IMG/VR virus record: IMGVR_UViG_3300037485_002817
Location: 1 to 23,645 of that record
Origin: a virus
Direction: 5' to 3' (one strand)
Length of the DNA: 23,645 nucleotides
The position numbers and the translations under genes are program-made. Shown here piece by piece: positions 11,434 to 23,645 of the stretch (positions within the stretch are counted from its first letter, which is position 1; each line of letters starts with the position of its first letter). The notes below the pieces were generated by a model that saw nothing but the letters and a program-made list of their open reading frames with translations, had not been told where the DNA came from and ran no database searches.

Positions 11434-14400
11434 ATGCCGATCCAATCCGGCGACGTGAAACTGCTGAAGTCCGCCGTGATGGCGGATGTGCCCGAGGGCG
11501 GTGGCGCGCCCACGGGCAACACCATTGCCGATGGTGTCTCCAACGCCATCTTCCCTGACATCTCCGAGCTGGATCGCGCCGGTGGCCGGGTCAACTTGCG
11601 CAAGTCCTTCGTCTCGGTGCAGACCGACGACACCGACACCTACTTCGGTGCCAATGTGATCGTGGCCGAGCCGCCGCAGGATGCCCGTGTCAGCGTCACC
11701 CTGTTCAGCACCGAGAAGACCTTCGACACCCGCGAGCAGGCGCAAGTCCGCATCGAGGCCTACCTCAACAAGGGCCCCGAGTGGGCGGGCTACCTGTTCG
11801 AGAACCACATCGCGGGCCAGCGCGTCATTCAGCTTTTCCAGCGCACCACCGACACCGTTCCCAATGTCGGCCAGACGCTGGTCTTGATCGAGAACGAGGG
11901 ACTGGGCACCCAGAAGGAGCAGTACATCCGGGCCACCTCGGTGTCCGTCGTCGAGCGCACCTTCACCTACGACGGCGACAAGGACTACAAGGCCAGCATC
12001 GTCACGGTCGACATCAGCGACGCCCTGCGCTACGACTTCACCGGCTCGCCCGCAAGCCGCACGTTCACTCGCGCCGCGAATAGCACCAAGACGCGCGACA
12101 CGGTCGTGGCGGACGCCGGAACCTACGTCGGGGTAGTACCGCTGACGCAGGCCGCCGCCGTCGGCGACTTCACGATCAAGGGCACCTCGATCTACACGCA
12201 GTTGGTGCCGAGCGCGCAGACCGAGACGCCTATTTCCTTCGTGCCACCGTATGCGGCAGCAGGACTGCCAGTACCAGGGGCCGTCGCGGTGAGCTACACG
12301 GCCAGCCACGCGTGGACGACCAGCATCAAATTCAATCTCCCGGGCGGTTGCTTGCCGGGGTCACTGACCATCGGCACGGACGGCATCACGATATTTGACG
12401 ACGCAGGCCTGCTCAAGACCGCCAGCGGGACGGTCGGAACCATCGACTACGCCAACGGCATCCTGACCCTGAACTCGGGGACGATGTCGAACGCGAAAGC
12501 GGTCACCTACACGCCTGCCGCGCAGATTCTGCGTGCGCCGCAAAGCTCGGAGATCCCGGTCACGCCCGAGTCGCGCAGCCAGTCCTACGTGGGCACGGTC
12601 AACCCGGTGCCGCAGCCCGGAACGCTGTCGATCAGCTACATGGCCCAAGGGCGCTGGTATGTGCTTTCCGACAGTGGCAACGGCTCGCTCAAGGGCCTGG
12701 ACGCCAGCTACGGCGCGGGCACCTTCAACAGGAATACCGGATCCTTCGTGGTCACGCTGGGTGCGTTGCCCGACGTGGGCAGTTCGCTCGTGCTGACCTG
12801 GAATGTGCCGACACAGGAGACGCAGCAGCCATCGACCACCCTCAAGGCGTCGCAGGGTCTGACCTTGAACCCGCCAGCTGGGACGGCAGTGCAACCCGGG
12901 TCGCTCACGGTGTCGTGGGAGTACGGCGGCACCAAGACGGCAACGGCGGCCACGTCGGGCGTGCTGTCGGGTGCCGCCACTGGCAGTCTGAGCGTGGCGC
13001 AGAACCGCGTGGACTTCGCGCCGAATGTGCTGCCGTCCGTGGGGACAGAGCTCACCGTGAGCTATGTCGCGGGCCCCAAGCAGGAAGATTTGTTCGCGCA
13101 TCCGTCCCGCAACGGATCGGGGCTGTTGCCGGTCACTGCAACCCTCGGGGCCATCGAGCCGGGCTCGCTCGAAGTCGAGTGGAACACTTTCACCGACGAG
13201 GCGGTTCTCGGCGCGTACACCTTCGCTCAATTGCAGGAGATGGGCATCGCCGTCTCGATCTGGCGCGACCCCACCCAGATCGCCCGAGATGACGGGAACG
13301 GCGGTGTAGTGCTGAACGGGATCTCGATTGGCACCGTCAACTACGCAACCGGTCAGGTGACCTTCAATCCGGATGTCTCGATCCGTATCCCACGCCCGGT
13401 CTACACGGCAGTCGCCATCAACGGCACCGGTCGGTGGCGATTGAACTACGGCGGCATCGCCTACGTCGATGCGCCATCGCTGTACCCCAACGACGAGTCC
13501 GGCTACGTCAAGCTGCGCTACAACAGCGCGGGCTCGACCAGCAACCAGACCGAGACGTTCCAGTTCCTCCCGGCCTTCAAGCTGGTACCGGGGGTGAATG
13601 CCCAGGTGGTGACTGGCACGGTGCTTCTCTCCATCAGTGGCGCGCAGCCTTGGGGCGACAACGGCCAGGGCACCCTGCGCGAGTTCACCACCAGTGGCTG
13701 GGTCACGCGCGGCACGATCAACTACCTGTCCGGGGACGTGGCGCTGACGTCCTGGACGGCGGGCACGAACAACGCGATCACGCGAGCCAGTTGCGTGACC
13801 ACGGTCGGCGAGAACATCTCCAGCGAGTTCGTGTTCCGAACTGGCGCGGCACCGCTTCGTCCTGGGTCGCTGTCGATCCAGTACGCCCGCGCGGTTGGCG
13901 GCACGCAAAACGTGACGGCCGGGATTGACGGCAAGATCGAGGCAACCGGCATCAGCGGCAGCGTCGACTACGAGACCGGTCTGGTGCGCGTTCGCTTCGG
14001 AACGATGGTCACGGCGGCGGGGAGCGAGAGCCAGCCTTGGTACGCCGCCGACCGGGTGGGCACGGACGGCAAGATCTTCCGACCCGAGCCAGTGGCTGCA
14101 TCCAGCGTGCGCTACAGCGCGGTGGCCTACAGCTATCTGCCGCTGGACGCTGATCTGCTTGGTATCGACCCGGTGCGTCTGCCCAGCGATGGGCGCGTGC
14201 CGATCTTTCGCCCGGGCGGCTTCGCCGTGGTGGGCCACACCGGCAAGATCACGACCTCGGTCAGCAACGGCCAGACCATCAACTGCGCTCGGGTGCGCCT
14301 GTCGCGCGTGCGCGTCGTCGGCCACGACGGAGCGGTGATCAACACCGGGTACTCCACCGATCTGGAAGCGGGCACCGTCACCTTCATCAACGTGTCGGGC

Positions 14401-14997
14401 TACAGCCAGCCCGTGACCATTGAGCACCGCATCGAGGACATGGCCGTGGTGCGGGATGTGCAGATCAGCGGTGAGATCAGCTTCACGCGCGCCCTGACGC
14501 ACGAATATCCGCTGGGGAGTCACGTCTCCAGCGCGCTGGTGGCCGGTGACCTCTTTGCCCGCGTCAATCTGGTGTTCGACCAGTCGACGTGGAACGGCGC
14601 GTGGTCGGATGCCTTGTCGGGCAGCTCGGCAACAGCGACGTTCAACAACACGCAGTACCCGATCCGTGTGACGAACCGAGGCGCATTGACCGAGCGCTGG
14701 GTCGTTCGACTGACCAACAGCACCTCGTTCGAAGTCATCGGCGAGAACGTCGGCGTGATCGCCACGGGCAACACCAGTGCGGATTGCGCACCCAACAACC
14801 CGGCGACCGGCGTGCCGTACTTCCAACTGCCTGCGCTCGGCTGGGGCAACGGCTGGGCCACTGGCAACGTGCTGCGCTTCAACACCATCGGCGCGCAGTT
14901 CCCGGTCTGGGTGGTGCGCACCGTCCAGCAGGGGCCGGAATCCGTGCCCGACGACAACTTCACGTTGCTGATTCGCGGCGACGTGGACACCCCTTGA
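11434..14997 (+). CDS. Large tail-tip/baseplate protein with tandem beta repeats
   Basis: This is a 1187-residue protein with a GGAG ribosome site seven bases before the ATG. The first 300 residues look like a distinct N-terminal domain (VKLLKSAVMADVPEGGGAP, YFGANVIVAEPPQDARVSV, EAYLNKGPEWAGYLF). From residue 308 a degenerate beta repeat recurs: a PGSL-type strand (residues 308, 395, 488, 576, 810) followed by a G-(T/S)-(I/V)-(D/N)-Y-x-(T/S/N)-G turn (near residues 338, 633, 760, 842). The C-terminal 150 residues (VIGENVGVIATGNTSADC, FQLPALGWGNGWATGNVLRF) form a further beta domain. It sits where lambda encodes its tip proteins. I infer a structural hub or tail-fibre scaffold. It has no recognised catalytic motif. 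Confidence 0.8.
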   Translation: MPIQSGDVKLLKSAVMADVPEGGGAPTGNTIADGVSNAIFPDISELDRAGGRVNLRKSFVSVQTDDTDTYFGANVIVAEPPQDARVSVTLFSTEKTFDTREQAQVRIEAYLNKGPEWAGYLFENHIAGQRVIQLFQRTTDTVPNVGQTLVLIENEGLGTQKEQYIRATSVSVVERTFTYDGDKDYKASIVTVDISDALRYDFTGSPASRTFTRAANSTKTRDTVVADAGTYVGVVPLTQAAAVGDFTIKGTSIYTQLVPSAQTETPISFVPPYAAAGLPVPGAVAVSYTASHAWTTSIKFNLPGGCLPGSLTIGTDGITIFDDAGLLKTASGTVGTIDYANGILTLNSGTMSNAKAVTYTPAAQILRAPQSSEIPVTPESRSQSYVGTVNPVPQPGTLSISYMAQGRWYVLSDSGNGSLKGLDASYGAGTFNRNTGSFVVTLGALPDVGSSLVLTWNVPTQETQQPSTTLKASQGLTLNPPAGTAVQPGSLTVSWEYGGTKTATAATSGVLSGAATGSLSVAQNRVDFAPNVLPSVGTELTVSYVAGPKQEDLFAHPSRNGSGLLPVTATLGAIEPGSLEVEWNTFTDEAVLGAYTFAQLQEMGIAVSIWRDPTQIARDDGNGGVVLNGISIGTVNYATGQVTFNPDVSIRIPRPVYTAVAINGTGRWRLNYGGIAYVDAPSLYPNDESGYVKLRYNSAGSTSNQTETFQFLPAFKLVPGVNAQVVTGTVLLSISGAQPWGDNGQGTLREFTTSGWVTRGTINYLSGDVALTSWTAGTNNAITRASCVTTVGENISSEFVFRTGAAPLRPGSLSIQYARAVGGTQNVTAGIDGKIEATGISGSVDYETGLVRVRFGTMVTAAGSESQPWYAADRVGTDGKIFRPEPVAASSVRYSAVAYSYLPLDADLLGIDPVRLPSDGRVPIFRPGGFAVVGHTGKITTSVSNGQTINCARVRLSRVRVVGHDGAVINTGYSTDLEAGTVTFINVSGYSQPVTIEHRIEDMAVVRDVQISGEISFTRALTHEYPLGSHVSSALVAGDLFARVNLVFDQSTWNGAWSDALSGSSATATFNNTQYPIRVTNRGALTERWVVRLTNSTSFEVIGENVGVIATGNTSADCAPNNPATGVPYFQLPALGWGNGWATGNVLRFNTIGAQFPVWVVRTVQQGPESVPDDNFTLLIRGDVDTP
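12355..14010 (+). repeat. Tandem degenerate PGSL / GTIDY-TG beta repeats
   Basis: Within the 1187-residue tail protein, PGSL, PGTL or PGSL-like strands begin at bases 12355, 12616, 12895, 13159 and 13861. GTVNY or GTINY or GSVDY turn motifs start at 13330, 13711 and 13957, and GTIDY lies shortly after 12430. Spacing between the first four PGSL starts is 87, 93 and 88 residues, consistent with a repeating domain of about 90 residues. Confidence 0.65.
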
Positions 14998-15019
14998 ACC
15001 GTAGACAGGAACCCTTGAG

Positions 15020-16285
15020 ATGACCGACTTGACCGTCAAATACTTCAACAGCGGCATGACCGGCGCACCGCAGATCGCCAACAACTGGGGCGATCTGGTG
15101 ACGATGCTTGATGCCTGCCTCGTCAACGGCTTCGCGTTGAAGGCCATCGACACGCTGACCTTCGCCGATGGCATCGCCACAGCCACCATTTCCACCGGCC
15201 ACGCCTATCGGCCTTTTCAGGTGGTCGAGATCGCTGGAGCCGAGCAGCCTGAGTACAACGGTTCATTCCGTGTGCTGTCGACGACCACGACCGCCTTCAC
15301 CTATGCGGTGACCGGAGCGCCGGTGTCGCCCGCGACGACGACCACTAACCTGAGCGCCAAAGTGGCTCCACTTGGGTGGGAGAAGCCGTTCGCGGGGACG
15401 AGCAAGGCCGCCTATCGCAGCAAAAACCCACAGTCGCCGCAGAACATCCTGCTGATCGACAACAGCCTCAAGACGCCCAACTACACGACGGGGTGGGCGA
15501 AGTGGGCCAACGTCGGAATCGTGGAAGACCTGTCCGACATCGACACCATCGTTGGCGCACAGGCTCCGTATGACCCGAACAACCCGACGCAGAACTGGAA
15601 ACAGGTCACCGCTAGCCAGTGGGGTTGGTACAAATGGTTCCACGCACGTGGCCCCCAGTACGAAAGCAACGGCGACAGCGGCGGCGGAGGTCGCAACTGG
15701 GTGTTGATCGGTGACGACCGTCTGTTCTTCCTGTTCTGCACCAACGCAGCGGGCTACGGCTGGTACGGCCGCAACAGCTATTGCTTCGGCGACCTCATCA
15801 GCTTCAAGCCCGGCGACAACTTCGCCACGGTGCTGGCCGCTGATGACAACTACTCGGGGATGAGCAACTACTGGAGCTATCCAGGGCAGTTCAGCGGCTA
15901 CGGGCTGGTTTCGTCCCTGGACTTCACCGGCAAGGTGCTGCTGCGCAATCACACCCAACTCGGCAATCCCGTCCGGTTCGGACTCACGTCGCTGAACACC
16001 AACAACGGCCAGCAGATCTGCGGTCGGGGCCCGATGCCGTTCCCGAATGGAGCCGACTACAGCTTGTGGCTGTTGCCCACCTACGTGCGGCAGGAGGACG
16101 GCCATATGCGCGGCATCCTGCCCGGGATGCTGTGGATGCCCCAAGACCGGCCCTATAGCGATCAGACCATCGTGGACAACGTGGTGGGTCAGGCGGGTAA
16201 GCGCTTCTTGCTGGTCAGGACGCAGTACAGCTCGGAAACCGAAGGCGCACAGATCGCGTTCGACATCACTGGCCCGTGGAGGTAA
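15020..16285 (+). CDS. Tail protein of unknown function, aromatic-rich
   Basis: This is a 421-residue protein, ATG at 15020, with AGGA nine bases upstream. The N-terminal 110 residues appear beta-rich (DTLTFADGIATATIS, FQVVEIAGAEQPEYNG, RVLSTTTTAFTYAVTG). The rest is rich in Trp, Tyr, Asn and Gly (QWGWYKWFHARGPQY, AAGYGWYGRNSYCFGD, NYSGMSNYWSYPGQFSGYG), a composition common in carbohydrate-facing phage proteins. It lies between the large beta-repeat protein and a lectin-like protein, so a tail-fibre or receptor-contact role is plausible. No motif identifies a specific family. Confidence 0.75.
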   Translation: MTDLTVKYFNSGMTGAPQIANNWGDLVTMLDACLVNGFALKAIDTLTFADGIATATISTGHAYRPFQVVEIAGAEQPEYNGSFRVLSTTTTAFTYAVTGAPVSPATTTTNLSAKVAPLGWEKPFAGTSKAAYRSKNPQSPQNILLIDNSLKTPNYTTGWAKWANVGIVEDLSDIDTIVGAQAPYDPNNPTQNWKQVTASQWGWYKWFHARGPQYESNGDSGGGGRNWVLIGDDRLFFLFCTNAAGYGWYGRNSYCFGDLISFKPGDNFATVLAADDNYSGMSNYWSYPGQFSGYGLVSSLDFTGKVLLRNHTQLGNPVRFGLTSLNTNNGQQICGRGPMPFPNGADYSLWLLPTYVRQEDGHMRGILPGMLWMPQDRPYSDQTIVDNVVGQAGKRFLLVRTQYSSETEGAQIAFDITGPWR

Positions 16286-16288
16286 GCC

Positions 16289-17374
16289 ATGAGCTACCCG
16301 CTGAGCGAGTCTTTCGCCACGGCTCCTGCGACCGGCTACACCGCAGTCCTCGGCGGAATGGCCGCGACACACAACAACGTGCAGCAGTCCATCGATATCT
16401 CGGCCCCCAATAGCCAGTCCATCCTGCGCTTCAACGAAACCGCCCACGGTGACTTCTGGTTCGAGGCGGATGTTGAGTTTCTGACCGACCCGAGCGCCCG
16501 CAAGCACATCGGCCTGTGGATGACCACCGGCAACGGTTCCGAGGGCTACCGGTTCGCACATATTGACGGTGCCTGGAGCGTGACACGCTGGAACAGTGGT
16601 TTCGGCGACGGCGCGGCAGTGACGGGCGGCGTCAACGATGGAGCGAAGCCGGTCGCGGGCGTTATAGACGTGGCCCCGACCTTCAACGTCGGCCAGCGGA
16701 TGACCCTGCGATGCGAGGTCATCGTCGGAGCCTTCGACGCCAACGGCGTGCCGTGGGCTCGTCTGATCCAGTTCAAGGCCGGTGGGGTGCTGATGTTCCA
16801 GGTCGGGGATGCTGCCTACCGGGGCAAGCTGATCCCGGGCGTGTTCCTGTATGGGGCCACGGCGCGCGTCCACGCGATTGCGGGTGACACGCCGTCAGGT
16901 CTGCCCGCGTTTCCGGCAACCGTGGGCGTGAACGCCGCCGATGACCTGCTGCCGCTGGCCGGTGGATCGACTTCGGTGCTGCCTGATCCTGCCGCCAACA
17001 TTGGCGTGAATGCCGACTGCGACCTGATGCGATTGAACAGCCCCAACTCTGAGTTGTGGAGCCGCAGCGGCGGCTACGACTGGCACTTCCACCCAATTCC
17101 GAACGGCCGCAAGGACATCCATTTCAGTGGCCACGGCGTCATCGCCGGAACCGTCAAAGAGAAGGGCCAGCCCGACCAGCCCCTGGTGCGGCGAGTACAA
17201 CTCTTCAGCGAGAACACCCGCGTCCTGGTGGCCGAGACCTGGAGTGACACCACGGGCGCGTACCGGTTCGAGCTGATCGATCCGGCCCAGAGATACACCG
17301 TGGTCAGCTACGACCACAAGCAGATGTACCGCGCCGTGATTGCCGACAACCTTCACCCGGAGACGATGCCGTGA
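16289..17374 (+). CDS. Tail protein with lectin-like N-terminus and carboxypeptidase-regulatory-like C-terminus
   Basis: This is a 361-residue protein; GGAGG overlaps the previous stop just before ATG 16289. The first 200 residues read like a concanavalin-type jelly roll (SILRFNETAHGDFWFEADVEF, KHIGLWMTTGNGSEGYRFAH, VGQRMTLRCEVIVGAF). The C-terminal 85 residues resemble a carboxypeptidase-regulatory or fibronectin-like beta sandwich (GHGVIAGTVKEKG, RRVQLFSENTRVLVAETWSD followed by TTGAYRF, then YTVVSYDHKQMYRAVIADN). Such C-terminal domains are frequent in phage tail and virion proteins. This makes it a candidate for host-surface contact. Domain calls are by eye and of moderate certainty. Its stop overlaps the next start as GTGA. 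Confidence 0.75.
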   Translation: MSYPLSESFATAPATGYTAVLGGMAATHNNVQQSIDISAPNSQSILRFNETAHGDFWFEADVEFLTDPSARKHIGLWMTTGNGSEGYRFAHIDGAWSVTRWNSGFGDGAAVTGGVNDGAKPVAGVIDVAPTFNVGQRMTLRCEVIVGAFDANGVPWARLIQFKAGGVLMFQVGDAAYRGKLIPGVFLYGATARVHAIAGDTPSGLPAFPATVGVNAADDLLPLAGGSTSVLPDPAANIGVNADCDLMRLNSPNSELWSRSGGYDWHFHPIPNGRKDIHFSGHGVIAGTVKEKGQPDQPLVRRVQLFSENTRVLVAETWSDTTGAYRFELIDPAQRYTVVSYDHKQMYRAVIADNLHPETMP

Positions 17375-17766
17375 CCGTTGCCATCACTGTCGAACACAAC
17401 GAGGCGCGGCTGGCGGGCACCCTGGCGTTCCTGGATGCGGGCAGCAACCCGGCGCGTCTGCGCATCTACGGCGGCACGCGACCGGCTACACCTGCGACGA
17501 CGCCGACGAGCGCGATGCTGGTCGAGATCAGGCTCACCAAGCCTGCTGGCACGATTGCAGGCGGGCTCCTGACGCTGGCGCAGCAGGAGGATGGCTTGAT
17601 CACCAGCACCGGCGTTGCCACGTGGGCACGGCTGGTCAACGGCAACGAAGTCACGGCGCTGGATCTGGACTGCAGCGGCACCGATGGGAGTGGAGATGTG
17701 AAGCTGGCCAGCACTAACCTCTATCTGGGTGGCGACGCCCGGATGGTTTCTGCGATTCTGGGGTAG
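17371..17766 (+). CDS. Small beta-rich tail protein, function unknown
   Basis: This is a 131-residue protein using a GTG start that overlaps the previous stop (GTGA). It is beta-rich and Gly/Thr-rich: MTVAITVEHNEARLAGTLAF, SNPARLRIYGGTRPATPA, MLVEIRLTKPAGTIAGGLL, ALDLDCSGTDGSGDVKL. It lies inside the tail-tip block and is probably made with the lectin-like protein upstream through coupled translation. I do not recognise a family. A later start in this frame would remove conserved-looking strands, so the GTG is preferred. Confidence 0.7.
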   Translation: MTVAITVEHNEARLAGTLAFLDAGSNPARLRIYGGTRPATPATTPTSAMLVEIRLTKPAGTIAGGLLTLAQQEDGLITSTGVATWARLVNGNEVTALDLDCSGTDGSGDVKLASTNLYLGGDARMVSAILG

Positions 17767-17769
17767 GCC

Positions 17770-19785
17770 GTGCCGAGCGCATCCAGCGAATTGACGCTGG
17801 CCGTCACGCTGCCGATACCCGAAGTCAGCATCGCGTTCGGCCCACTTCTGGTCAACCTGCTGTTCGATCAGCCTGCTGCCGCCGACGCCGACTTGGTGTT
17901 CGGCGCAGGCTTCGCCCCGCCGCGCGACGACGTAGTGGTGCTGGCCAGCCTGCCGCTGCCGGTTGTCTCGATCAAGTTCATCCCGCCAGCGCGAGCCGAA
18001 TTGCTGGCAGAGCTACCTGCCTTGACGGTCAGCACGTTGCTGTTGCGCCCGAGCGTGCCCTTGGACGTGATGGGCGCAAGTCTTCCCGGTGTCGTGTTCT
18101 CCGGCGAGGTCAGGTACTACTCTCGCACTCAGCGACCGACGGTTGGCCAGACCGCTCACCCTTGGCAATTGGCGAGACAGACCGAGGACGGTGCCACGCA
18201 GGGCCAGCAGGACGCTGGCGCTACACCCGCAGGCTGGGCCGTGTTCTGGCGACGCACCTTGGGTGTTCCTCAAGGCATCGAGCACAGGTTGCCGCCAGTG
18301 CTGGCGGCAGCGCCCGAGCAACGAAGCGCTCGCCATCAGGATGCGACCCGGCTGCAGGATTCGACGTGGTTTGCGCACCAGGACGCCACGCGGTTTGAAG
18401 CGGCCCGACGCGGTCTGTTCCAGAACGCAGGCCCTCTGCGGGATGCCACGCGGTTCCGGCATCAGGACGGTGACCGCACCAAGCGCGCCGGGAGAGTGTC
18501 CCGGTGGCAAAGCGCTGCGTTGGTGGTGCGCGGCCAGGGAAGCGATTTTCAAACGGCGCGCCTGCAACTGAGGGGCTGGCGCGGCAGGTATCAGGAGGCG
18601 GTGCCGCCGCCACCGGGCATCAGCCGGTGGGTGGTGCCTGAGCCGCCCGTTCCGCAGCCTTGCTACACGCCCAGTCCGCACCTGCTGTTTGCCGCGCTGG
18701 CCGCGACCGATGGGCATCTGCTGTTCCTTTGTGAAAACCACGTCACCCCGCCGCCACCCGATGGGGAGCCGGTGGTCATTCCTGTTCGGAGGGTCTATTT
18801 CGTGATCAACAACGTGACCCTGTACCGCGTGTCCGATGGCTCGCCAGTGCCGGTGTTCAACCTCTCGCTGTCGCTCGATGCATCGTCCTGGGCGTGGGGC
18901 TTCGATGCGGTGCTGCCTGCGAAAGCAGAGGCACTGGTCGCGGGCAGCGCATCCGGGCCCGTCGAACTCGTGGCCAGCGTCAACGGCACCTCGTTTCGCG
19001 TGCTGGCCGAGAGCATCAGCCGCGAGCGCATCTTCGGTGACGCCAGCATCCGCATCTCCGGACGGGGGCGCAACGCCGTTCTGGCCGCGCCTTACGCGCC
19101 GGTGATGACGTTCTCGAACACCGAGGGCCGCACTGCTCGGCAGTTGATGGACGACGTGCTCACGGTCAACGGCATCCCGCTGGGCTGGGCGGTCGATTGG
19201 GGCCTGACGGACTGGAACGTCCCCGCCAATGCGTTTGCGCAGCAGGGATCGTGGATCGACGCACTGACCGCCATTGCCGGTGCTGCAGGTGGCTACTTGA
19301 TTCCGCATCCCTCGGCCCAGAGCATCCGTGTGCGTCATCGCTACCCGGTCGCCCCTTGGGAATGGAGCACGGTCACGCCCGACTTCGTGTTGCCGGTCGA
19401 TGCCGTCGCCCGCGAGTCGCTGCGCTGGCTGGAAAAGCCTGCGTACAACCGCGTGTTCGTTTCCGGGCAGGACGTCGGCGTCCTCGGGCAGGTGACCCGA
19501 GCGGGGACTGCCGGAGAAGTGCTGGCACCCATGGTCGTCGACCCGCTGATCACCGAGGCCGCCGCCGCGCGTCAGCGTGGCATCGCCGTGCTGGCCGACA
19601 CCGGTCACCAGCTTGAGGTCAGCCTGCGTCTGCCGGTGCTCGCCGAGACCGGGATCATCGAGCCCGGCGCATTCGTGGAGTACCGGGACGGCAGCGTCAC
19701 GCGATTAGGCATTGTCCGCGCGACCCAAGTGGAAGCCGGGTTGCCCGAGGTCTGGCAGACGCTGGGAGTGCAGGCCTATGCATAA
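17770..19785 (+). CDS. Tail-tip hub-like protein
   Basis: This is a 671-residue protein, start GTG at 17770, three bases after the previous stop. Residues 1-110 are hydrophobic, strand-rich and Pro-rich. Residues about 180-260 are highly charged with Asp-Ala-Thr-Arg repeats. Residues about 340-671 (VRRVYFVINNVTLYRVSDG, TFSNTEGRTARQLMDDVL, AGAAGGYLIPHPSAQSIRVR, RESLRWLEKPAYNRVFVSG, VSLRLPVLAETGIIEPG) have the layout of the gp27/gpD-like hub domain that carries the tail tip. It is followed by a small OB/SH3-like protein, just as hub genes are followed by spike or OB genes. The assignment to the hub class is by architecture and context. Confidence 0.7.
   Translation: MPSASSELTLAVTLPIPEVSIAFGPLLVNLLFDQPAAADADLVFGAGFAPPRDDVVVLASLPLPVVSIKFIPPARAELLAELPALTVSTLLLRPSVPLDVMGASLPGVVFSGEVRYYSRTQRPTVGQTAHPWQLARQTEDGATQGQQDAGATPAGWAVFWRRTLGVPQGIEHRLPPVLAAAPEQRSARHQDATRLQDSTWFAHQDATRFEAARRGLFQNAGPLRDATRFRHQDGDRTKRAGRVSRWQSAALVVRGQGSDFQTARLQLRGWRGRYQEAVPPPPGISRWVVPEPPVPQPCYTPSPHLLFAALAATDGHLLFLCENHVTPPPPDGEPVVIPVRRVYFVINNVTLYRVSDGSPVPVFNLSLSLDASSWAWGFDAVLPAKAEALVAGSASGPVELVASVNGTSFRVLAESISRERIFGDASIRISGRGRNAVLAAPYAPVMTFSNTEGRTARQLMDDVLTVNGIPLGWAVDWGLTDWNVPANAFAQQGSWIDALTAIAGAAGGYLIPHPSAQSIRVRHRYPVAPWEWSTVTPDFVLPVDAVARESLRWLEKPAYNRVFVSGQDVGVLGQVTRAGTAGEVLAPMVVDPLITEAAAARQRGIAVLADTGHQLEVSLRLPVLAETGIIEPGAFVEYRDGSVTRLGIVRATQVEAGLPEVWQTLGVQAYA
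18334..18477 (+). repeat. DATR micro-repeats in the hub-like protein
   Basis: The sequence encodes DATR at 18340, 18382 and 18442, plus a DSTW variant at 18358 and an HQDGDR variant ending at 18477. The first two copies are preceded by HQ. The copies differ at synonymous positions (GAT GCG ACC CGG, GAC GCC ACG CGG, GAT GCC ACG CGG), so the peptide pattern is maintained rather than recently copied. Confidence 0.6.
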
Positions 19786-19999
19786 CCTCTACGAGCAGTT
19801 TCGCCAACTGATCCCCGACCCGCCGCTGCAGGCGGGCACCGTGACCGACGTCGGCTCTGGCGTGGTCACGGTCGCATTGCCCGGTGGCGGCCGAATCAAG
19901 GCGAGGGGCTCTGCGGCCCTTGGCCAGAAGGTGTTCGTGCGCGACGACGCCATCGAAGGCATCGCGCCCAGCCTGACGCTGGAAATCATCGAGATCTGA
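19778..19999 (+). CDS. Small OB/SH3-fold-like tail protein
   Basis: This is a 73-residue protein, ATG at 19778 overlapping the end of the hub-like gene by eight bases (MHNLYEQFRQL). After an N-terminal helix it shows a run of short strands: GTVTDVGSGVVTVALPGGG, RIKARGSAALGQKVFVRDD and SLTLEIIEI. This pattern of a five-strand barrel resembles the OB-fold domains that sit under baseplate hubs or at the spike. It is the last gene before the terminator of the tail operon. The fold call is a pattern judgement; no family is recognised with certainty. Confidence 0.65.
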   Translation: MHNLYEQFRQLIPDPPLQAGTVTDVGSGVVTVALPGGGRIKARGSAALGQKVFVRDDAIEGIAPSLTLEIIEI

Positions 20000-20022
20000 A
20001 ACCCAACTGATTCAACCCTGAG

Positions 20023-20062
20023 ACCCGCCCTGATGCTCACGCATCGGGCGGGTTTCGCATTT
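20023..20062 (+). terminator. Rho-independent terminator after the tail operon
   Basis: ACCCGCCC (20023-20030), one bulged T, GATGC (20032-20036), loop TCAC, GCATC (20041-20045) and GGGCGGGT (20046-20053) form a 13-bp stem with one bulge. The trailing TTCGCATTT is only weakly T-rich, so the hairpin is strong but the tail imperfect. It separates the tail genes from the lysis cassette. Confidence 0.75.
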
Positions 20063-20075
20063 CTGGAGCACGCAA

Positions 20076-20366
20076 ATGAACGCACCGACTGTGACAGGGG
20101 GCATGGTGACCATGCCCAAGGACGAATTCGAAGAACTGCTGGAGCGCGTCGCCGAACGCGGCGCTCGCCACGCGCTGGCTGATGTGGGCCTCGATGGCGA
20201 AGACGCTGCCAGCGACATCCGAGAGCTGCGGGGCCTGCTGGAGGCCTTCAACACGGCCAAACACACCGCGTGGCAGACGGTGGTCAAGGTGATCACCACT
20301 GGCTTCCTGCTGGCCCTCGTCGCAGGCGCAATCATCAAGCTCAAGGTGTTCGGAGGTGGCCAATGA
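20076..20366 (+). CDS. DUF6127-like membrane protein of the lysis cassette
   Basis: This is a 96-residue protein with GGAG at 20065-20068, seven bases before the ATG at 20076. The N-terminal two thirds are charged and helical (KDEFEELLERVAERGARHAL, GEDAASDIRELRGLLEAF). A single transmembrane helix lies at about residues 67-90 (AWQTVVKVITTGFLLALVAG), followed by a short basic end. I recognise it as DUF6127-like; such proteins commonly precede a holin in phages of GC-rich hosts. It may help the holin or form an accessory membrane protein, but its role is not known. Its stop overlaps the holin start. Confidence 0.75.
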   Translation: MNAPTVTGGMVTMPKDEFEELLERVAERGARHALADVGLDGEDAASDIRELRGLLEAFNTAKHTAWQTVVKVITTGFLLALVAGAIIKLKVFGGGQ

Positions 20367-20839
20367 TCGAGACCCTGCTCGGTGGCCTCCTGGGCGGGGC
20401 CTTCCGTCTCGCGCCCGAATTGCTCAAATGGCTCGACCGCCAAGGCGAGCGTGGCCACGAACTGGCGATGCAAGACAAGGCGCTGGAGTTTGAAAAGCTG
20501 CGTGGCGCGCAGCGCATGGCCGAAATCGGCGCGAGCGCCGATGCGGCGTGGAACGTCGGAGCCATCGATGCGCTGCGCGACGCCGTCCGCACCCAGGGTG
20601 AGAAGACCGGCGTGCGCTGGGCCGACGCGCTCTCAACCAGCGTGCGTCCGGTGATCACCTACTGGTTCATGGTGCTGTACTGTGCAGCCAAGACGGCGGC
20701 ATTTGTGGCTGCCGTGACCGCTGGCGCTGGCTGGGGCACAGCCATCCTGCACGCCTGGACGGAAGCGGATCAGGCGCTGTGGGCTGGTGTACTGAACTTC
20801 TGGTTCCTCGGGCGCGTGTTCGACCGGGTGCGTTCGTGA
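20363..20839 (+). CDS. 3TM-type phage holin
   Basis: This is a 158-residue protein, start ATG at 20363 with a strong GGAGG at 20352-20356. It has an amphipathic Gly/Leu-rich N-terminus (METLLGG-like, MIETLLGGLLGGAFRL) and a long charged middle (residues 25-90). Membrane segments follow at about residues 95-122 (RPVITYWFMVLYCAAK) and 138-152 (ALWAGVLNFWFLGRVF). It matches the pattern of the 3TM holins linked to gene-transfer agents and many prophages (GTA_holin_3TM). Holins time lysis by opening the inner membrane for the endolysin. The end overlaps the endolysin start as GTGA. The family is a confident recognition by pattern, not by search. Confidence 0.8.
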   Translation: MIETLLGGLLGGAFRLAPELLKWLDRQGERGHELAMQDKALEFEKLRGAQRMAEIGASADAAWNVGAIDALRDAVRTQGEKTGVRWADALSTSVRPVITYWFMVLYCAAKTAAFVAAVTAGAGWGTAILHAWTEADQALWAGVLNFWFLGRVFDRVRS

Positions 20840-21291
20840 GCGAAGTGCCGAAAACGGCCATCGAGCTGGCCAAGCGATTCGAGGGGTTCCACCGCGTGCC
20901 GAAGGCCGATCCTGGACGCGCACACCCGTACATCTGTCCTGCAGGGTACTGGACGATTGGCTACGGTCACCTCTGTGATCCGAAGCACCTGCCGATCACC
21001 GAGACCGAGGCCGAGATCTATCTGGCGCGCGACCTGCAGACGGCGCTCGCCGCGACGCTGCGTTACTGCCCGGTGCTCGCCGCCGAACCCGAAGGGCGAC
21101 TTTCGGCCATCGTGGACTTCACCTTCAACCTTGGCGCAGGGCGGCTGCAGACGTCGACGCTACGGCGGCGTATCAACCAGCGGGACTGGGTGGGCGCGGC
21201 ACGCGAGTTGCTGCGCTGGGTCAATGGCGGGGGGAGGGTCTTGCCGGGGCTCGTGGCGCGCCGAACGTGCGAAGTGGCACTGTTGCGATAG
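20836..21291 (+). CDS. Endolysin, GH24 lysozyme family
   Basis: This is a 151-residue enzyme that cleaves the glycan backbone of peptidoglycan. The GTG start at 20836 overlaps the holin stop; an upstream ATG would extend into the holin and is rejected. The catalytic Glu16 lies in KRFEGF and the downstream motif CPAGYWTIGYGH gives Cys34 and Thr40 in the E-(D/C)-T triad. Cys replaces the Asp of T4 lysozyme, as in many phage lysozymes. Glu-Cys spacing is 17 residues instead of the usual 8, because of an extra loop (KADPGRAHPY). The C-terminal GGRVLPGLVARR is typical of the family. There is no signal sequence or signal-anchor at the N-terminus, so it depends on the holin for export. Confidence 0.92.
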   Translation: MSEVPKTAIELAKRFEGFHRVPKADPGRAHPYICPAGYWTIGYGHLCDPKHLPITETEAEIYLARDLQTALAATLRYCPVLAAEPEGRLSAIVDFTFNLGAGRLQTSTLRRRINQRDWVGAARELLRWVNGGGRVLPGLVARRTCEVALLR

Positions 21292-21306
21292 GCGCAGGAA
21301 TGGCGA

Positions 21307-21339
21307 GCCCGATGACGAAACGACAACGTTGCATCGGGC
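21307..21339. repeat. Inverted repeat between lysis cassette and cargo genes
   Basis: GCCCGATG (21307-21314) pairs perfectly with CATCGGGC (21332-21339), with a 17-base loop that itself contains the palindrome CAACGTTG. It could be a terminator without a clear T tract, a protein-binding site, or a remnant of the junction between phage backbone and cargo. Confidence 0.45.
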
Positions 21340-21385
21340 AAACCTTTAATGATATCAGGCCTCGCCAGAGGTCTGCATCCTCCGG

Positions 21386-21391
21386 TAAAAT
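21386..21391 (+). promoter_or_regulatory. Candidate -10 element for the DUF488 gene
   Basis: TAAAAT matches five of six bases of a sigma-70 -10 box. It lies 24 bases before the DUF488 start, in a noticeably AT-richer stretch. No clear -35 box is found at 16-18 bases upstream, so this is a weak call. Confidence 0.3.
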
Positions 21392-21414
21392 CACTGTTTA
21401 GAGGGGCTCAATCA

Positions 21415-21897
21415 ATGACTGTTTTCACCATAGGCTACGAAGGACTGGACATCGACGCGTTCATGTCGCTGCTCGCTGAGCACGGCATCGAGACGGTCGT
21501 GGACATCCGCGAGCTACCCCTGTCGCGCAAGCCTGGGTTTTCGAAGAAGGCGCTGGCCAGCGTCCTGAACCTTTCTGGCCTCGAGTACGTCCACATGGTC
21601 GCGCTGGGTTGCCCGAAGCTGGTGCGTGATCGCTACCGAGAAGACGGCAACTGGAAGCGCTATACCGACGGTTTCCTGAAGCACCTCAAAACGCAGAAAC
21701 CAGCCATCGACGAGCTCGCGGAATTGGCTGCGTCGTCGAACTGCGCACTGCTCTGCTACGAGGCCGATTTCAATTTCTGCCACCGTTCGATGGTGGCCAA
21801 CGCTGTTCGGGACGCCAGTGGTGCGGACGTCGAGCACATCACCGCGGCGGCCACTAAAACAGCGAGCCCTGCCTCACTTCGGCTGGCTTTCGCTTAG
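21415..21897 (+). CDS. DUF488 family protein
   Basis: This is a 160-residue protein starting ATG at 21415, chosen for the GAGGGG at 21401-21406; an ATG at 21349 would add 22 unrelated residues. Family motifs are all present: TIGYEG (residues 5-10), VDIRELPLSRKPGFSK (29-44), and C-Y-E (114-116) with C-H-R (122-124). DUF488 proteins are small and of unknown biochemical function, and are often found near defence or mobile genes. The last 14 residues are encoded in the 44 bases that also form the end of the opposite-strand neighbour, so the C-terminus is compact and may be the least constrained part. It is plus-strand, facing the other two cargo genes. Confidence 0.93.
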   Translation: MTVFTIGYEGLDIDAFMSLLAEHGIETVVDIRELPLSRKPGFSKKALASVLNLSGLEYVHMVALGCPKLVRDRYREDGNWKRYTDGFLKHLKTQKPAIDELAELAASSNCALLCYEADFNFCHRSMVANAVRDASGADVEHITAAATKTASPASLRLAFA

Positions 21898-22684
21898 GCG
21901 GGTAGACCAAGCTGATGATCAGCCACTGGTCTTGGAACCGGTGCTGATTACCCATCAGAAACATCAAGTCTTTGCCGCCGAGTTGGCCTTCGAGCTTGGC
22001 GCGAAACGGGGCCTCCCAATCGACGCCGTGGTCGCGGCGGCAGTTCCAGAATAGAGCGCCAGCTTCCCAGTCAACGATCTTGTGCCGGTGCTCCACCTCA
22101 CCTTCGGGGGAGTCGCACACGTACCGGTAGTGGAAGTCGAACGGCACCTTTCGCAGCTCCTTCACCTGCCGCTTTGCGTCTGCCTCGGAGAACAGATCAC
22201 CTTGCATCTGCTCCCGCATCAGCTTCTCTTTTTCGTCCTCCGTCCATTCCTGGTTCCGGGCCTTTGTGATCTCAAGCCCGAGTAACCTTTTCGGCCGTAG
22301 CAGTGCGATGGACAGTTTGTCGCTCAAGCGTCCTGCGTCGAGGGCAACGAAGCTATCGAACGATGGAATTTTGTCCAGCCATTCCCAGCGGAGGCCCCAT
22401 TCCTTCTTCGTGTCGATCCGATCTCCGCACTCAATCGTGTCGACGTAAAGCTTGTGGCTCTCCGGCCGGTGATCCTTATTGGCCTTTTCGACCCTGACGT
22501 CGATCCACTGCCACTTGGTGAACTGCTGGCCTTCCTCAATCATCCGAAATGGCACGGGGTAGAGACGTCGCATCGACCCGTCTTGGCTGATGCCCGCAAC
22601 GCACGACGTCTCAACGTACTGCGCGCTTGGCGAGGGGTACGTCTTCGCCAGAATCAGAATTCGCTCTTTCCTGATCTTCTCCAT
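21854..22684 (-). CDS. Conserved protein of unknown function, DUF488-neighbour
   Basis: This is a 276-residue protein on the minus strand, start ATG at 22684-22682 with a GAGGG ribosome site on that strand. A longer frame to 22864 lacks a better start. Recognisable blocks are RILILAKTYPSPSAQYVET (8-26), KWQWIDVRVEKA (57-68), DHRPESHKLYVDTIE (71-85), the motif RPKRLLGLEI (130-139), FDFHYRYVCDS (182-192), HKIVDWEAGALFWNC (201-215), and DLMFLMGNQHRFQDQWLIIS (239-258). Such block structure suggests a conserved family, and I have the impression it often lies beside DUF488 genes, but I cannot name it. The final residues QGSLF (272-276), and an internal QGDLF (161-165), resemble sliding-clamp-binding motifs. 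It is downstream of the nuclease gene and likely co-transcribed with it. Confidence 0.85.
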   Translation of the reverse strand: MEKIRKERILILAKTYPSPSAQYVETSCVAGISQDGSMRRLYPVPFRMIEEGQQFTKWQWIDVRVEKANKDHRPESHKLYVDTIECGDRIDTKKEWGLRWEWLDKIPSFDSFVALDAGRLSDKLSIALLRPKRLLGLEITKARNQEWTEDEKEKLMREQMQGDLFSEADAKRQVKELRKVPFDFHYRYVCDSPEGEVEHRHKIVDWEAGALFWNCRRDHGVDWEAPFRAKLEGQLGGKDLMFLMGNQHRFQDQWLIISLVYPPKRKPAEVRQGSLF

Positions 22685-22754
22685 CGGACGGGCCCCCTCG
22701 CTTTGTTGAACTAATCCACGATGCCTGTTTTCATCGGCATTGACGCAAAAACGA

Positions 22755-23645
22755 TCACGCCCACACCTGATCCAGGTTCTTCGCTGCCAGCAACTTGTCT
22801 CGAAGCGCGTAGCGCGACGACTGCATGTTGACCTCGCTGCTCTCCGGGCGCGGGATCGGAACAATGGCCGTTGCCGCCCCTTTGAACTTGATCATGTACT
22901 TGCCCGTGTCGTTGTACGGAACGATGGCGTCAATCTCGGCGATGTGGGTGATGGCAGCAACAGGGGCGACCTGATAGGCCGCGATGAACTTAAGTTTCGA
23001 GATGTGCTTCGCATTGATCCGCACGGCGAACCAGCAGTGCTCGTTCAGAAAGCGTTGCTTGAACCCTTCCTCGCGTGCCGGGACAACGATGGTGTCGAAC
23101 TTGTCGCTCTCAGAACCGACGGGCTGTACTTGATCGCTCGGGTCGTCCTGCTTGGGTGGCGTGAAGGCGTTGATTCCAAGCATCGGCAGGATCAACAACA
23201 TGTCGGCCAGGAACGCCTGCGCGGTGGCCTTCGCCGCAGGCGCCATCGTCGGAGCCGTCGGGTTGTTCTTGTTCAGCAAAATGGCCCGGTCATGCTTCTT
23301 GGCCAGCGCAACCAGTGCCGATTCCAGGTACTGAACTTCAGTCTTGCCGATCTTGTGGTTGCGGTCGAAGAAGTAGACGCCCCAGACCCATCCCTCCTTG
23401 TTCGAGACGTGATTCTTCAAGCGGTCGCCGACGGGATCAGCCTCACCGATGTAGATCGTCTCTTCCGCAGCATTGCCCACAAGGATGTAGATACCGGCCT
23501 GGGAGAAGCCCGGTTCCTGCTTCAACAGGTGGAAGAGCTCCCTGTTGAAGACGACGCCGTAGCCTGACCAGTTCGACTTGTCGAGGTGGCGAATGCCTTC
23601 GGGATCACCGGTAGTTGCGAAGAGCGTGATGGAGAAAGGTTGCAT
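22755..23645 (-). CDS. GIY-YIG nuclease family protein with an extra C-terminal domain
   Basis: This is a 296-residue protein on the minus strand. The ATG is the last three bases of the window, so an earlier start upstream cannot be excluded. An N-terminal segment (residues 1-45, with KSNWSGYGVVF) precedes the nuclease core: GIYILVG (51-57), IYIGEAD (64-70), Arg75 in DRLKNH, and Glu108 in YLESAL, the expected residues for a GIY-YIG enzyme. After a linker (about 125-180), residues 180-296 form a second domain with KFDTIVVPAREEGFKQRFL and CWFAVRI, KLKFIAAYQVAPVAAITHI, and MQSSRYALRDKLL. This second part is not the DUF4357 domain usual in relatives. I suspect a PUA/EVE-like reader fold, an inference only. 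It lies 70 bases upstream of the 276-residue gene. Confidence 0.85.
   Translation of the reverse strand: MQPFSITLFATTGDPEGIRHLDKSNWSGYGVVFNRELFHLLKQEPGFSQAGIYILVGNAAEETIYIGEADPVGDRLKNHVSNKEGWVWGVYFFDRNHKIGKTEVQYLESALVALAKKHDRAILLNKNNPTAPTMAPAAKATAQAFLADMLLILPMLGINAFTPPKQDDPSDQVQPVGSESDKFDTIVVPAREEGFKQRFLNEHCWFAVRINAKHISKLKFIAAYQVAPVAAITHIAEIDAIVPYNDTGKYMIKFKGAATAIVPIPRPESSEVNMQSSRYALRDKLLAAKNLDQVWA

Follow-up and report, generated by a model that had tools for sequence, protein, structure and literature searches.

A mobile gene pair beside a phage lysis cassette: a DUF488 protein of the PDC-M19 candidate class and a dual-OB-fold partner with putative sliding-clamp-binding motifs

Do the genes that follow the endolysin at the right end of a phage sequence form a single module, and what might such a module do? 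We analysed this for the IMG/VR virus record IMGVR_UViG_3300037485_002817 (23,645 nt, or 23.6 kb; this whole stretch of DNA is referred to below as the window). An earlier note had described a DUF488 gene, an unnamed conserved gene and a GIY-YIG gene after the endolysin and proposed a candidate three-gene defence or DNA-processing module with the GIY-YIG nuclease as its effector. All three ORFs (named here A, B and C) were confirmed as real in the window, with Pfam and PADLOC matches, and the features considered below are as follows.

20779–21291, phage lysozyme (endolysin), preceding A, B and C
21264–22757, A-B segment missing in sister phages, whose C comes right after the endolysin
21415–21897, plus strand, gene A, DUF488 protein of 160 aa, a PDC-M19A-like short form without the N-terminal domain (Pfam, PADLOC and homologue start)
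21754–21786, plus strand, putative active site of A, C114-x-E116 ... C122-H123-R124, all invariant
21854–21897, tail-to-tail overlap of A and B, 44 nt
21854–22684, minus strand, gene B, 276-aa dual-OB-fold protein, PDC-M19B (PADLOC, AlphaFold2 model and Foldseek)
21857–21871, minus strand, putative C-terminal clamp-binding motif of B, residues 272–276, QGSLF
22190–22204, minus strand, putative internal clamp-binding motif of B, residues 161–165, QGDLF
22755–23645, minus strand, gene C, GIY-YIG domain protein of 296 aa, PDC-S14, a resident neighbour outside the A-B module

The record ends at the start codon of C, which reaches the window's last base, and thus the sequence upstream of C is missing. 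The G+C content fell from ~0.65 to ~0.58 in the last 2 kb, in agreement with the claim that the cargo is less GC-rich than the phage genes, and the placement of cargo at the phage right end beside lysis genes was also supported. A Megablast search of the window against phage records gave no match.

The position of C relative to A-B was the most informative for defining the unit. C matched PDC-S14 models of PADLOC over residues 1–172 to 1–182 (1e-49 for residues 1–172) and the Pfam GIY-YIG family only weakly (E=0.004, below the cut-off), and a sequence search of the PDB gave no useful match. PDC-S14, which does appear in the literature, is a single-gene candidate unrelated to A-B. When ~110 A-B loci were compared directly with C, no intact C was seen outside the window, and A-B was never found in nine other C loci, all close viral relatives of C. 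The phage L025 was 92.7% identical to the window over 13327–21263 and then continued with C at 95.1% identity (22761–23645) without A-B; L028 and L029 had the same endolysin-to-C junction, also without A-B. These sister phages represent a natural empty site for A-B, with C resident beside the lysis cassette. As C adjoins the lysis genes where A-B is missing, its low G+C content is no sign of joint arrival.

The reciprocal arrangement was found in the prophages L035, L042 and L052, which carried A-B after the lysis genes and had no C. The sole other A-B-C order was a chromosomal locus (L034), whose B is 95% identical to that of the window and where A-B precedes what is left of C, a pseudogene interrupted by stop codons. 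The intact A-B and decayed C of L034, together with C-only and A-B-only phages, show that A-B is the moving unit. Thus the module consists of two genes only, A and B, and C occupies the same slot as a passenger in its own right; annotators should treat the GIY-YIG neighbour as a gene apart from A-B. Of the proposal in the earlier note, the candidate defence character survived for the A-B pair, which is flagged as a candidate defence system, whereas the three-gene unit with C as effector did not.

C was the last gene of differing restriction operons in L025, L028, L029 and L032 (type III, type I and a PLD-helicase system with a DUF1156 methylase). The gene upstream of C was a type III restriction enzyme in L025, HsdR in L029 and the PLD-helicase system in L028, suggesting that the phage slot swaps whole defence systems and C stays.

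The link between A and B was much tighter. A matched PDC-M19A (4e-35) and B matched PDC-M19B (1e-58), and the two genes adjoin in the window. B-first searches of viral, plasmid and genome collections yielded 184 loci with B, a count that includes duplicates reached by more than one search, and A adjoined B in ~176 of them, in phages, plasmids and chromosomes alike; some of the remainder were contig ends. L137 (G001) and L034, for instance, are the same Oxalobacteraceae locus obtained from two collections. The co-localisation of homologues called for in the earlier note was borne out for A and B, which travel together, and outside the window C was met beside them only as the decayed remnant of L034. 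Among the 176 paired loci, 126 were convergent, 46 had A then B and four had B then A. The overlap of convergent pairs was exactly 44 nt in 56 and 47 nt in 20 of the 126, and A was short in 125. When mapped on a tree of 121 B proteins inferred by maximum likelihood (bootstrap not fully settled), the five classes of order and length required at least 10 changes, compared with 38.5 expected for shuffled labels. The order has thus changed repeatedly with A and B still together, indicating that their link outlives rearrangement.

A-B belongs to the PDC-M19 candidate class and moves as a unit of two genes. The PDCs of PADLOC are unpublished or unvalidated candidates found through their embedding in known immune systems (PMC12988326), and our literature search found no publication on the function of PDC-M19 or on experiments with it. 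The window copy differs from PDC-M19 in that its genes are convergent and overlapping and its A is short, covering the DUF488 part only (profile positions 146–290 of 294). The N-terminal half of the M19A profile, absent in the window A, is perhaps not a defining feature of PDC-M19, and we filed the window A-B as a variant PDC-M19 rather than a canonical copy. B occurred patchily, in 12 of 398 Pseudomonadota genomes (3%), on Rhizobium, Burkholderia, Streptomyces, cyanobacterial and Sulfolobus plasmids, and in Gordonia phages beside the immunity repressor; A-B also stood alone on conjugative plasmids.

A is very likely a working DUF488 enzyme, as judged from the residues D30, R32, Y58, G65, C114, E116, C122, H123 and R124, which were invariant among 76 aligned A proteins. 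It matched Pfam DUF488 (PF04343; E=4e-29) and DUF488-N3a (6e-9; 'Active DUF488-N3 subclade'), with no Pfam families beyond the DUF488 ones and no SocA/Panacea domain. The start at 21415 fits the start conserved among relatives, and most of them do not share the longer ORF that begins at 21349. The structural model (pLDDT 92.4) gave weak matches in the PDB to diphthine-synthase-like methylases and an archaeal PTP-fold phosphatase (best E=0.006), and a sequence search of the PDB gave no useful match. Burroughs and Aravind (2023) reportedly assigned DUF488 to a rhodanese-phosphatase clade and predicted that it processes DNA ends in conflict systems. The DUF488 and DUF488-N3a matches of A and its weak phosphatase and diphthine synthase fold matches are points of likeness to the proteins of that prediction; a point of difference is that B is only weakly related to Pfam DuOB.

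The A of co-directional lineages is often extended at its N-terminus by a further domain of ~145 aa (L152:3093-3989, L168:3052-3939, L180 and others). This domain was weakly similar to SocA_Panacea (E 6e-5 per record), and a search of the PDB by sequence gave a weak match to a chain that bears the name DNA ADP-ribosyl glycohydrolase (E=0.024). The SocA_Panacea similarity is below the cut-off and we did not accept the domain as SocA/Panacea; it may be an antitoxin-like add-on. On Saccharolobus shibatae plasmid pBEU9E1 (L131:2939-3988), B is preceded by a gene with the annotation of a ParB-family partition protein, the C-terminal part of which matches the DUF488 profile; a fusion of DUF488-HTH to a CTP-binding ParB-CTPase fold has been reported in archaea (PMC12704722).

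For B, nothing above the cut-off was found in Pfam or NCBIfam, and a profile search of the PDB gave no useful match. Two distant B proteins matched Pfam DuOB (PF22557) below the cut-off (0.002, ~18.6 bits vs 27), and the window B did not match it. An AlphaFold2 model built with 74 homologues (pLDDT 86.7) was most similar in Foldseek searches of the PDB to the Oxytricha telomere end-binding protein alpha subunit, RPA, POT1 and Teb1 (best E 1.4e-4), with low global TM-scores (best 0.41/0.47, to RPA70). The model contains two OB folds and aligns with the multi-OB RPA, POT1 and telomere end-binding proteins, suggesting that B is of the dual-OB kind and may bind single-stranded DNA or the ends of DNA.

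Two short motifs stood out in B. Q161, L164, F165, Q272 and L275 were at least 90% conserved in 74 aligned B sequences, compared with a mean column identity of 50%. We counted the motifs in 110 non-redundant B proteins, with two archaeal ones left out, and in 1000 shuffles. The strict QxxLF was present at the tail in 66 of the 110 (shuffled mean 1.3, maximum 6) and internally in 92 (shuffled mean 2.5, maximum 8); the broad tail motif was present in 92 (shuffled mean 10.4), and 103 had at least one strict QxxLF copy. The tail motif occurred in only three of 1756 other ORFs longer than 200 aa from the loci, many of which are not real genes. Both motifs lie in model segments of lower confidence, the tail being flexible and the internal one forming a loop between two helices, as expected for exposed peptides.

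The two motifs correspond to the established bacterial clamp-binding consensus, QL[S/D]LF or QxxLF (PMC12309361), and in mobile-element proteins, including IS transposases with C-terminal QLxLF, the clamp motif is often C-terminal, with PCNA-type motifs in archaeal relatives (PMC4549789). B shares the C-terminal placement and the PCNA-type variant in Archaea; it differs in being no transposase and in having a second, internal motif. We strongly predict that B binds the sliding clamp through its two QxxLF motifs, and short motifs alone are no proof of this. The two Sulfolobales B homologues have neither QxxLF motif and a diverged linker, and both end in GIDxWL, which in our judgement resembles a PCNA box, on the basis of two related sequences. 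A scan of viral contigs with a Saccharolobus query yielded no further archaeal B proteins, and a literature search for the PIP-box 'GLDKFF' found nothing. We also considered whether the tail motif is a by-product of the antisense overlap with A, which is ruled out by its retention in co-directional lineages without the overlap: deep relatives of this kind, 25–33% identical, still end in QLSLF, QLSLL or QLPLF.

Restriction or other defence operons were frequent in the same slot, in line with the defence context claimed earlier, and in the sister prophages B or C frequently closed a restriction operon, the type of which varied. Immediately upstream of B, in the same orientation, lay a gene for a type III restriction enzyme (L011 and L052), type I HsdR (L007), GmrSD (L005), ResIII-TnsA (L003 and relatives) or an SNF2 helicase (L050, and L002 at ~550 nt), with a spacing between restriction gene and B of mostly 25–50 nt. 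Across 35 diverse loci from chromosomes, the 69 large genes closest to the pair on the side of B included four N6_N4_Mtase and four ResIII genes, and on the A side no restriction genes were among the listed families. The association of A-B with restriction genes is thus real but moderate, restriction genes being a minority of the B-side neighbours in chromosomal loci, and a common cargo slot may account for some of it.

Taking these results together, we tentatively favour the reading that A-B is a clamp-addressed DNA-end-processing pair of mobile elements, used against competitors and probably defensive. B would bind single-stranded DNA or 3′ DNA ends, and its two clamp-binding motifs (the PCNA-type tail in Sulfolobales) would bring it to sites of DNA synthesis. 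Through contact with A, a rhodanese/phosphatase-like enzyme, B would deliver it to clamp-marked DNA ends or primer-template junctions, where A may modify or remove terminal phosphate, nucleotide or sugar groups. The benefit to the prophage or plasmid would most likely be that rival DNA entering the cell is kept from being replicated or repaired, in many cases together with the action of a restriction system. A bolder form, which we regard as rather doubtful, is that PDC-M19 provides clamp-addressed immunity, with B docking on beta in bacteria or PCNA in Sulfolobales and handing replicating DNA ends to A, so that invaders are stopped at their own forks; if this is true, PDC-M19 would choose its target from the replication clamp and not from sequence or modification. 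PDC-M19 was already known as one of many defence candidates resting on neighbourhood statistics alone, and clamp motifs are not described for it in the literature that we found. Their presence on the dual-OB partner suggests a cellular site of action, and five residues offer a concrete and cheap handle on it.

The pair might instead serve self-protection, patching or protecting the element's own DNA ends, for instance where the neighbouring restriction system or nucleases of the host have cut it, that is, maintenance or counter-defence rather than attack. The likeness of the OB folds to end-binding proteins would suit such a role, as would the clamp motifs, which are typical of replication and repair proteins (PMC12309361), the place of A-B right behind restriction genes and its stand-alone presence on conjugative plasmids. 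However, A-B is a defence candidate in PADLOC, no gene for recombination or replication accompanies it consistently, and the patchy 3% occurrence in Pseudomonadota fits conflict genes equally; we consider self-repair unlikely.

Caulobacter SocB jams replication by occupying the sliding clamp. A toxin–antitoxin-like arrangement, in which B (or A-B) acts in this way, the partner restrains it and phage infection or loss of the element releases it, would make A-B comparable with SocAB as a two-gene unit with a clamp-binding partner (binding being predicted for B). Clamp-targeting toxins do exist, SocB (PMC5422525) and a sliding-clamp toxin–antitoxin system in Streptococcus pneumoniae (PMC12795458), and the long A of other lineages has the weakly SocA_Panacea-like N-terminal domain. 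We nevertheless judge this arrangement improbable, as the window A has no SocA-like domain and keeps its full set of invariant putative catalytic residues, and B, with two motifs, is a large folded dual-OB protein and not a small clamp plug. Finally, a three-gene system with C as nuclease effector, suggested by the direct adjacency of C to A-B in the window and the C remnant kept in L034, is largely refuted and very improbable, since C-only sister phages and A-B-only loci dominate and C decays in L034 beside an intact A-B.

Some individual loci deserve mention alongside the favoured reading of A-B as a clamp-addressed pair. In L011 (4839-6177), A and B both have apparent frameshifts and the adjoining type III restriction enzyme gene is intact; this is either a decayed copy or a sequencing error. 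On a Pseudomonas sp. CIP-10 plasmid (L019:7449-8747), A-B is adjoined by a HEPN/Toprim protein and then an AAA protein. In Gordonia phage Nymphadora, gp42 (L022:5819-6271) is annotated as a 'HipA toxin', probably a misannotation, as it is a DUF488 protein (Pfam 1e-29), and its gene converges on that of a B homologue next to the immunity repressor.
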